Part shown: one piece after another, positions 24,251-26,543 of the stretch
Numbering within the stretch: position 1 is the stretch's first letter
How the letters are laid out: each line of letters begins with the position of its first letter
Assembly (NCBI GenBank): GCA_034190545.1
Contig: JAXIOF010000016.1
Location: 1 to 64,000, forward strand
Reading direction: 5' to 3'
Length of the DNA stretch: 64,000 bases
From: Candidatus Afararchaeum irisae
Lineage (GTDB): Archaea; Halobacteriota; Halobacteria; Halobacteriales; Afararchaeaceae
Program-made: the position numbers and the translations under genes
The notes under the pieces: generated by a model
What the model saw: only the letters and a program-made list of their open reading frames with translations
The model's database searches: none
What the model was told of the DNA's origin: nothing

Positions 24251-25159
24251 ATGCAGAACACTGATCCTGACTACGACAACATCGTAATAGGCGCAGGAGT
24301 AGCCGGACTCTCAGCCGCACTCTACACGTCACGTCTCAACCATCCGACGTTAGTGATAGACAAAGGCGGCGGACGTATAAACCAGGTACGCCACGTCCAC
24401 AACTACATAGGAGTGACCGACGACAACACGGGCGAGGACTTACAGTCGGTCGGCATAGACCAGGTGAAGAAACACGGAGGCGAGTTCGTCCACGACAAGG
24501 CAGTCGACGCGACGAAGGAAGACGGCGTCTTCCACGTCGAGACGGACAGCGGTGACGTCTATACTTCGCGTTCGCTCGTCGTCGCGACGGGGATGATGGA
24601 CGTATTCCCCCAGGTTCCGGGACTCGGACGTTTCAACGGACACGAGGTGCATTACTGTCTCCACTGTGACGCCCATCTATGTATAAACGAGGACGTCTTC
24701 GTCTTAGGCGACGACGACCACGCCGCAGTCGTCGCACTCATTCTTCTCAACTTCACAGACGACGTCACATTTCTCACGAACGGCGAGACTCCCGAGTTGA
24801 GCGAAGAGTACTCCGAGAAGATCGAGACGAACGGGATAGATGTCGTCGAGAAGGAGATAGAGTGTGCGGAGGGAGACGAACACCTCGAACGTCTCGTCTT
24901 CGAAGACGGCGAGTCGCGGGAGTTCGACAGAGGCTTCGCGATGCTAGGCGGTAGGGTCAACAACGGGATACTCGAGAGCCTCGGAGCCGAACTCAACGAC
25001 TCGGGCTACGCCGTGATCGACGACGACGCTAAGACAGACATCGACGGTCTCTACGCCGTCGGAGACGTCACAGACGAGAACAACCAGATTCCGATAGGTG
25101 TCGGAAAGGGCGCAAAGGCGGGACTCGACATACACAAGAGCCTGAGGGAGTTTCCGTAA
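24251..25159 (+). CDS. Thioredoxin reductase-like FAD oxidoreductase
   Basis: This 302-aa class II pyridine nucleotide-disulfide reductase has FAD-binding IVIGAGVAGLSAAL (11-24), the redox pair C136-L-H-C139 (usual C-A-T/V-C), and a final FAD motif TDIDGLYAVGDVTDENNQIP. The NAD(P)H-binding region reads VLGDDDHAAVVAL instead of the usual Gly-rich GGGDSA, so the electron donor may not be NADPH. It probably reduces a thioredoxin or another disulfide partner. It is divergent from nothing close upstream except the tRNA-Ile scar, and an IS605-family relic begins 2 bp after its stop. Confidence 0.85.
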   Translation: MQNTDPDYDNIVIGAGVAGLSAALYTSRLNHPTLVIDKGGGRINQVRHVHNYIGVTDDNTGEDLQSVGIDQVKKHGGEFVHDKAVDATKEDGVFHVETDSGDVYTSRSLVVATGMMDVFPQVPGLGRFNGHEVHYCLHCDAHLCINEDVFVLGDDDHAAVVALILLNFTDDVTFLTNGETPELSEEYSEKIETNGIDVVEKEIECAEGDEHLERLVFEDGESREFDRGFAMLGGRVNNGILESLGAELNDSGYAVIDDDAKTDIDGLYAVGDVTDENNQIPIGVGKGAKAGLDIHKSLREFP

Positions 25160-25160
25160 A

Positions 25161-25460
25161 CTACCCCACCCTACTTCGCTCGGGCAAACCCTTGCTCGTG
25201 GAGGGATGGGGCTTTGACGTGGACTTCCGTTCTATGGCTATGAACCAACGGAGAGGCCTGTCTCCCCGTCGAAGGGGCATCAGTACTTACACGTTCACGG
25301 TCATCGTCCCGCCATTTAGCGCGACGTCTACGGGTGCGCCTCCGTCGCCGCCGTTCTGGTTGCGACGGAGTAGGAGTAAGGTATGCGACGCCGAGGCCGA
25401 TCCCAAGAACTGTTCTGTTCTCAGGGACTTCGGCGTTGCTTCCCTCACTATCAGTATCTA
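25161..25460 (-). mobile_element. Relic of an IS200/IS605-family element (tnpB fragment and right end)
   Basis: On the minus strand, one frame reads AEVPENRTVLGIGLGVAY (25,381-25,437), like the RuvC-I region of haloarchaeal TnpB, where the last motif is normally LGIDLG; the catalytic Asp is replaced by Gly. Another frame reads GGDGGAPVDVALNGGTMTVN then Val-stop at 25,287, like a TnpB C-terminus. The ~200 residues normally between them are deleted. The end near 25,164-25,211 forms an imperfect hairpin, CCCCACCCT with AGGGATGGGG, as at IS605 right ends. The relic abuts the stop codon of the reductase gene. No tnpA is present. Confidence 0.7.
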
Positions 25461-25570
25461 TCGTTTTATACAGTTAAATGTTTTACTACTATGTAGTGGT
25501 GGAGTTAACCGAGTCCAGAGAAAAGTGTTGGTGGAGGATGGGACGCGCTCCTCCCCTCCCTACTGCGTAT

Positions 25571-25778
25571 GCAAATCGAAGATTTGCTTGTGCTAGAAAA
25601 CTCTACGAGTTTTCTGCATCACAGAAATCTTTGATTTCTGAACGTCCTCAGAACGCTTCGCGGTCTGATGTGCGAACGAGAGCTCTGCTCTCGTTAACGT
25701 CCCCAGAAATCTTCGATTTCTGGTGTGCGAACGAATCGCTACGCGATTCGTTAACGCTGCTTGAGAGCCTGGGCTCTC
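25571..25778. repeat. Tandem array of eight short hairpins with 2-3 nt loops
   Basis: Eight successive palindromes lie at 25571-25587, 25595-25615, 25622-25640, 25649-25667, 25675-25695, 25704-25722, 25730-25752 and 25763-25778. Stems are 7-10 bp and loops are GAA, TAC, TTT, TTC, TCT, TTC, TAC and TG. From hairpin 3 on, linkers alternate between aacgtcc-N and N-tgtgcg, so hairpins 4-5 and 6-7 form a 55-bp dimeric repeat. Outer stem bases are constant within each class (CAGAA.., AACGA..), while inner bases change on both arms together. No gene is seen between 25,160 and 25,853. Confidence 0.85.
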
Positions 25779-25853
25779 TGCGCTGCTCGTTGAGGAAGGG
25801 GGCTCCGCGCTATCTTGTGCTGATCCCGAATTCCGATCCAGTCCCGACGACGA

Positions 25854-26543
25854 TCACTTCCCGTACCGTCTCTCCCTGTCCTGGAACTCTCGGAATGCAC
25901 GTAGAAGGTCGCGTTTCCTGAGCGAGTCCCACGAGAAGTCGGCGAAGTACAGCTCTGTGTAGACCGACTGCCAGATCATGAAGTCGGAGAGTCGGTCGTT
26001 TCCGGTTATCATCATGTCGGGCTCACCCTTGAAGACGAGATGTCTCTCTATGGTCTCCTCGTCTACGTCATCGGGATCGAGTTCGTCGTCCTCTACCTCG
26101 CGCGCCATCTGTCTGAGTGCACCGACGAACTCGTTGCGTCCTCCGAGACCCAGAGAGACCCTGACGTCCAACTCCGTCCCGTCGGTCTCACGTGTCTCGG
26201 TGTCGACTTCATCCGCGTGTCGGCTTACGAAGTCGATACTGATACCGTCGGTCTCCAAAGTACCGAAGCCGTCGTGTAGTCTGTCGGAATCGGGAACGGA
26301 ATCAGGATCAGGATCAGGATCGGGATCGGAGGCGGGGTTAGAGTCGGAATCAGATGTGCCCTCGGGAATGCTAACATAGAGGCTGACGCGTTCGACACCG
26401 AGATCCGAGGACCAGCCGAGGAGATCCGAGACAGTCTCGAAGCCACCGTCGAGGAGGTCGGAGCCCGACGTGACTACGGCTACGTGGTCAGGTGTACCAC
26501 GTCTTCTGACCTTACGTTCGAGGAGACGGTCATAGACGTACAC
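25854..26543 (-). CDS. Divergent undecaprenyl-diphosphate-synthase-family protein
   Basis: This 229-aa cis-prenyltransferase-fold protein keeps the family C-terminus: GGRNEFVGALRQMAREV, PDMMITGNDRLSDFMIWQS, YTELYFADFSW and FREFQDRERRYG. The N-terminal active-site motif HVA-x-x-MDGNGRW is changed to HVAVVTSGSD, without the catalytic Asp, so synthase activity is doubtful. Residues ~63-92 are a low-complexity insert rich in Ser-Asp and Asp-Pro, encoded by short imperfect DNA repeats (26,286-26,360). The start is GTG 26543, apparently leaderless. It pairs divergently with a DUF92 gene, pointing to a shared polyprenol role. Confidence 0.8.
   Translation of the reverse strand: MYVYDRLLERKVRRRGTPDHVAVVTSGSDLLDGGFETVSDLLGWSSDLGVERVSLYVSIPEGTSDSDSNPASDPDPDPDPDSVPDSDRLHDGFGTLETDGISIDFVSRHADEVDTETRETDGTELDVRVSLGLGGRNEFVGALRQMAREVEDDELDPDDVDEETIERHLVFKGEPDMMITGNDRLSDFMIWQSVYTELYFADFSWDSLRKRDLLRAFREFQDRERRYGK

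Follow-up and report, generated by a model that had tools for sequence, protein, structure and literature searches.

A hairpin array in a haloarchaeal genome and the short double hairpin elements that probably build it

Related repeats and the hairpin array

The closest described repeats are the CGTC-tagged REPs (Di Nocera et al. 2013, PMC3733652), reported from bacteria only. They carry a CGTC tag including TGTC and CCTC variants, have stems of 8-9 bp, occur as head-head dimers with the tags outside, as in-frame intragenic copies and sometimes inside palindromes, and have no known dedicated transposase (PMC3733652). GTAG REPs and REPINs, which go with TnpA-REP (RAYT), combine a foldback, a 5' tag and a dimer form and are thought to be cut as a single strand. 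In REP and IS200/IS605 hairpins, the foot carries a guide by which the target is paired (PMC6006769). Only TnpA subclass 1.1 (IS200-like) has been reported from Archaea (Quentin et al. 2018, PMC6006769). Haloquadratum harbors PATEs, including terminal-only PATEs of 52 bp, which are short, non-coding and IS605-related, without target duplication and with near-terminal palindromes (Dyall-Smith et al. 2011, PMC3119063). It also carries SMR-A (~110 bp, prominent ITRs), a short element of unknown mechanism that lacks target duplications as well and sits in near-terminal palindromes of PATEs/IS605 (PMC3119063). Mobile two-hairpin elements are furthermore described for Allomyces mitochondria (Paquin et al. 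2000, cited in PMC2800124); an RNA route has been proposed for them because target duplications are missing. Finally, the Rickettsia palindromic elements RPE-4/RPE-6 are palindromes found in frame in genes.

Here, we study a hairpin array in the window, i.e., the whole 64,000-nt stretch of Candidatus Afararchaeum irisae DNA that was analysed. The array (25,566-25,756) is real and built from stacked inserted mobile elements (Table 1). All eight mini-hairpins of the preliminary description are present, and the fold energy of the array is far below that of dinucleotide shuffles, with z-scores of -10.9 and -11.0 for the two strands as DNA and -8.2 as RNA. Within 182 bp, the array holds six perfect hairpins with three-base loops and stems of at least 7 bp, while a first-order Markov shuffle of the whole 64 kb yields on average 7.05 hairpins of this type. 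The previously noticed 55-bp period with alternating linkers is borne out by the 55-57-nt repeats that share linkers and begin at 25643 and 25698. On the other hand, the eighth hairpin, formerly counted as an array member, belongs to the host element.

Table 1. Coordinates of the array, its parts and its host element in the window.
Feature	Position	Strand	Remarks
Host element, non-coding IS605-derived PATE, ~474 bp without array	25161..25823	.	whole-length alignment to L039
CG target dinucleotide, start of the stack	25566..25567	+	copies without array; CG at ten empty sites tested elsewhere
Module 1, three-hairpin insert	25568..25644	+	stems TGCAAATC, AGAAAACTC (with bulge), CAGAAATC; AACG end
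Double hairpin unit 2, 55 nt	25645..25699	+	TCCTCAGAACGC..AACG; covariance model match 70 bits
Double hairpin unit 3, 57 nt	25700..25756	+	TCCCCAGAAATC..AACG; covariance model match 85 bits
Stem 1 of unit 2 with tag	25643..25674	+	CGTCC..(bulged T)GTGCG; RNA minimum-free-energy fold
Hairpins 1-4	25571-25587, 25595-25615, 25622-25640, ~25648-25668		last with one mismatch
Hairpins 5-8	25675-25695, 25703-25723, 25730-25752, 25763-25778		
Eighth hairpin, GAGAGCC-TG-GGCTCTC	25763..25778	+	part of host element; present in array-less L039, L040, L042

Module 1 is a separate module, which recurs elsewhere in the genome with 89-99% identity (L002/L028, L003/L029, L004/L030); locus L033 holds a shorter, two-hairpin form of it. 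It is followed by two double hairpins, and the model score of unit 3 is among the best across 147 genomes. In the predicted fold of stem 1 of unit 2, the lower stem is formed by the CG tag and the linker's GCG.

The array does not lie beside an IS200/IS605 relic, as assumed before, but inside an IS605-derived element. This PATE begins directly behind a thioredoxin-reductase-like gene (24251-25159), just past its stop codon, and the PATE end at 25161-25200 corresponds in reverse complement to the tnpB right ends found in L038 and L052. A copy in contig C36 of the same genome (L039) aligns across the whole joined element with the array absent. At the array site, L039, L040 and L042 read ...CCCTACTG-TG-CTGCTTGAG..., i.e., L039 shows an empty site with TG instead of CG, and it carries a different double hairpin elsewhere in the element. 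Both observations together imply that insertion took place in a single genome, among members of one host-element family.

Hairpin arrays or host-element copies lie at or close to the ends of contigs C4, C23, C62, C67, C95 and C101. These repeats thus probably break the assembly, such that the copy numbers for this genome are lower bounds. On the minus strand, an ORF at 25854-26543 resembles (by translation only) the C-terminal part of a cis-prenyltransferase; its acidic Asp-Pro repeat DPDPDPDPD is encoded by a GGATCA-type repeat in the DNA close to 26300.

Structure of the double hairpin

Double hairpins follow the plan C-[GTC(C/A), stem 1 with bulged T, lower stem closed by G-C and T.G]-[stem 2]-AACG. 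The inserted length is 55, 57 or 59 nt, with 57 nt being the commonest (92/111 units). Among the 111 distinct units, 100 carry the tag CGTCC or CGTCA (variants being TGTC, CCTC and CATC) and 98 terminate in AACG. The bulged T is found in 130 of 132 distinct canonical units, the lower stem shows G-C in 127/132 and T.G in 126/132, and the pair of tag and linker base is C-G in 99, A-T in 27 and other in 6 of the 132 units. Both stems comprise 9-10 bp, stem 1 has a three-base loop, and C-G closes the three-base loop in 209/222 hairpins. Linkers read TGTGCG or TTGGC(G/T), and their C and G pair with the G and T of the tag. Tags CGTC and CGTT point outwards in the units studied, an arrangement favored by the search. 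Most of 43 further hairpin pairs, which were picked for a CGT start and an AACG end, adopt this plan as well, with stems of other sequence.

With regard to sequence variation, the two arms change together in the stem interior (C-G, A-T, T-A), with pairing kept. The two-sided stem changes first seen within the array are real and hold over 111-132 distinct copies. Except for the outermost pair of stem 2, mismatches in the stem interiors are balanced (16 G.T vs 13 A.C). The lengths of stems 1 and 2 compensate each other (Fisher p 8e-7, an optimistic value given that related copies are counted separately). Loops fit RNA/TNY (purine-N-A or its complement) in 204/264 cases compared to an expected 21%, and this restricted loop type is observed on both strands (84 vs 120). 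C-G-closed GNA loops are known from extraordinarily stable DNA mini-hairpins (PMC4686876); the GNA-like loops found here suggest that it may be the DNA hairpins that matter. Among 15 copies from one PATE family of one genus, pi is 0.01 for stems and linkers, 0.48 for loops and 0.22-0.39 for flanks. Since stems and loops vary freely and pairing is kept, the units provide a natural covariation library for testing HUH enzyme recognition. Hypervariable loops next to nearly invariant stems and linkers are also seen in a family of long non-coding repeats (L203-L218, from several genomes of one genus), whose copies hold as many as three hairpin pairs each.

Compared by description, double hairpins are closest to the bacterial CGTC-tagged REPs, with which they have the tag and its variants, the outward dimers, the in-frame copies and the occasional location inside palindromes in common. 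We do not file them as a member of this group, since CGTC-tagged REPs show an unpaired tag, a 3-base tail (CCA), 4-5 nt loops and AT first pairs, whereas double hairpins have 3-nt loops, a partly paired tag, a bulged T, a fixed-linker dimer and a demonstrated CG target. In contrast to GTAG REPs, they have neither the GTAG foot (the tag being CGTC/CGTT) nor a flanking RAYT. PATEs serve as hosts here, while double hairpins insert into PATEs as well as into unrelated genes. SMR-A, again compared by description, is longer (~110 bp) than the 55-59 nt of double hairpins and has prominent ITRs instead of terminal complementarity on the scale of CGT/ACG; the two may nevertheless be kin. In Haloquadratum J07HQW1, 16 further loci show single units of ~57 nt, mostly at PATE ends or tnpB tails, and no obvious 110-bp elements. 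Head-to-head unit pairs of ~115 bp, found in L091 (1480-1620) and L050, recall SMR-A by size and terminal symmetry. The Allomyces elements are similar in form but belong to fungal mitochondria, while double hairpins are haloarchaeal. Like RPE-4/RPE-6, double hairpins occur in frame within genes; the in-frame copies observed here are those in tnpB tails.

Insertion, distribution and array growth

To identify empty sites, units were cut out of their flanks and the joined flanks were searched in other genomes. For 10 of the twelve constructs, a gapless empty site was found and the joint is always ...CG/next base. The respective loci are an IS6-like transposase gene (L048), a tnpB body in reverse orientation (L067), IS605 element ends (L063, L072, L089) and other sites (L025, L071, L077, L080, L086). 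Each insert lies directly 3' of CG and terminates in (A)ACG, i.e., the landing CG is restored at its 3' end. As in non-autonomous IS200/IS605 elements, there is a fixed CG 5' of the element and, at the empty sites, no target duplication beyond the shared CG. The latter does not fit MITEs, which are defined by a target duplication together with the terminal inverted repeats of a known transposon. CG makes up ~10% of the dinucleotides in the flanks. A palindromic target was considered as well; over the 43 site clusters into which the flanks of copies group, the mean stem of 3.16 does not differ significantly from the 2.91 expected (SD 0.17), such that insertions do not generally go into hairpin loops. 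Empty sites at base resolution fix both ends and target of the element and may also help with bacterial CGTC-type REPs. They compare genomes or copies within one genome, and no move from strain to strain within a species was observed. On these sequence comparisons, it is near certain that double hairpins are mobile insertions. We further consider it likely that they form a Halobacteriales-wide family of non-autonomous mobile elements, 55-59 nt in length, with the array of the window being three insertions.

A covariance model built from 22 units gave 961 matches in 128/147 Halobacteriales genomes and 52/56 genera. The preliminary description had named such a search for copies in the genome and its relatives as its check; neither a lack of other copies or of conservation nor assembly error holds: other copies are numerous and widely conserved, also in genomes of cultured species. 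Outside Halobacteriales, only weak matches were obtained in a phylum-wide sample (G171, G180, G187, all one genus, E 1e-7 to 1e-8). Used as query, the array matches 29 places in its own genome; another search hit 30/59 Halobacteriales genomes. An exact pattern was found in 12 named contigs, e.g., of Halobacterium, Halorientalis, Haloferax larsenii, Halapricum, Natronobiforma and Haloquadratum, and seven named genomes contain 10 to 24 units apiece. Matches also occur on 51 haloarchaeal plasmids. A phage origin was rejected, given zero matches among 50,697 phage records. No description of double hairpins was found in the open literature (subscription papers and supplements not covered), and the archaeal sample of RepRanger includes no haloarchaea. 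An abundant, order-wide class of haloarchaeal mobile DNA thus seems overlooked, probably hidden inside IS605 remnants.

Most copies are located within IS605-derived elements, often at the same site (left end, right end, tnpB tail), and many of these may descend from a few old host-carried insertions. The same observation would be expected if double hairpins were optional parts of IS605/PATE ends that are spread only by the Y1 transposase of their host. We consider this improbable, given that the flanks form 43 clusters, that insertions occur in an IS6-like transposase gene and reversed inside tnpB, that two copies of one PATE hold different inserts at different places, and that the target CG is unlike the TTCAC-like ends of many hosts. 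Even less likely is a structured non-coding RNA under RNA selection, e.g., an extension of the TnpB omega RNA. The strong fold, the many copies in the tnpB tail (adjoining the omega-RNA region) and the T.G wobble retained on one strand are in accordance with it, but the balanced stem mismatches, the loop type occurring on both strands with little preference, and the copies in the IS6-like transposase gene, plasmids, left ends and non-coding repeats are not. This option of the preliminary description is therefore disfavored. A scan of seven loci against Rfam gave no relevant match up to E 0.05. The similar two-hairpin form and the absence of a target duplication beyond CG would also agree with movement by an RNA route, as proposed for Allomyces; still, DNA cut-and-join accounts more simply for the CG requirement and for an end that restores CG by itself, which leaves the RNA route very unlikely.

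The regular 55-bp period, and the arms that stay complementary as inner bases change, could also result from local tandem duplication, with template switching or gene conversion keeping the arms alike. However, the neighbors in seven adjacent pairs are 13-19 edits apart, i.e., they differ like random units (median 13), while each unit has a near relative 1-6 edits away elsewhere. For instance, unit 2 differs by 15 edits from its neighbor and by 4 from its nearest relative (L002), and unit 3 is one edit from L076, a tnpB-tail unit of another genus. Since neighbors are unlike and have their twins elsewhere, arrays grow by serial insertion, and tandem duplication is hardly credible as their source. 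The edit distances thus refute the earlier idea of a palindrome-making copying process with regard to array growth; at the level of single hairpins, a palindrome-keeping process may still be at work, and template switching or gene conversion could help to keep each hairpin perfect. Under serial insertion, the array would result from three successive insertions into one CG site, two of the inserts being double hairpins, with new inserts entering where a previous copy ends in AACG. The stacking of different variants head to tail is observed. The array illustrates how clusters of hairpins can arise without duplication, through serial insertion. CRISPR, already dismissed in the preliminary description, needs identical repeats and unique spacers, while here hairpins are variable and linkers constant. 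Within the arrays of the window, L031, L038, L041, L053 and L057, neighbors resemble each other if anything less than random units do, which would fit a loss of identical neighbors by recombination.

Candidate mechanism and effect on tnpB

Tag, bulge, target and restored end of the double hairpin match the logic of REP and IS200/IS605 elements. Following this logic, the element would move as a folded single strand, and an HUH-type enzyme would cut and join at CG. The foot of the 5' hairpin with its bulged T could pair with the CG 5' of the element, such that the linker bases (GC/GCG) would act as guide pairing with the target CG. With regard to such a subterminal guide, the predicted structure has the bulged T and a tag CG paired to the linker's GCG, and covariation is seen in the lower stem. 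Only pairing, bulge, tag and end would be recognized, leaving stem interiors and loops free to vary.

Whether a Y1/HUH enzyme is the mover is about an even call. A Y1 match is present in 77/147 genomes, and 14 of the 70 genomes without one hold at least 10 units. The correlation of Y1 with unit number across genomes is weak (Spearman 0.25), and Y1 was thus rejected as an obvious partner. An adjacent hairpin pair is found at 6 of the 30 best Y1 loci, among which there is no dedicated Y1/RAYT gene flanked by the repeat. Among the options of the preliminary description, a REP-like mobile element is best: its REP-like and mobile nature stands, given empty sites, tag, bulged hairpin and CG target, while mobilization by Y1 is unproven. 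Only tentatively do we propose that double hairpins are a new group, i.e., archaeal single-strand elements of ~57 nt with a built-in foot guide, self-building CG arrays and a mover other than a resident Y1 transposase. Two Y1 transposase genes of one genome (L061 1822-1920 and L062) contain several perfect hairpins in their coding sequence; the frame stays open in L061 (140 aa), while L062 has one stop.

In the tnpB tail, 57 nt are added in 20/20 copies. At six loci, a long tnpB frame (399-438 codons) runs through the insert and gains 19 residues between ...SEST and ...LTPVET. Such in-frame copies may change TnpB nucleases in the region of their guide RNA.
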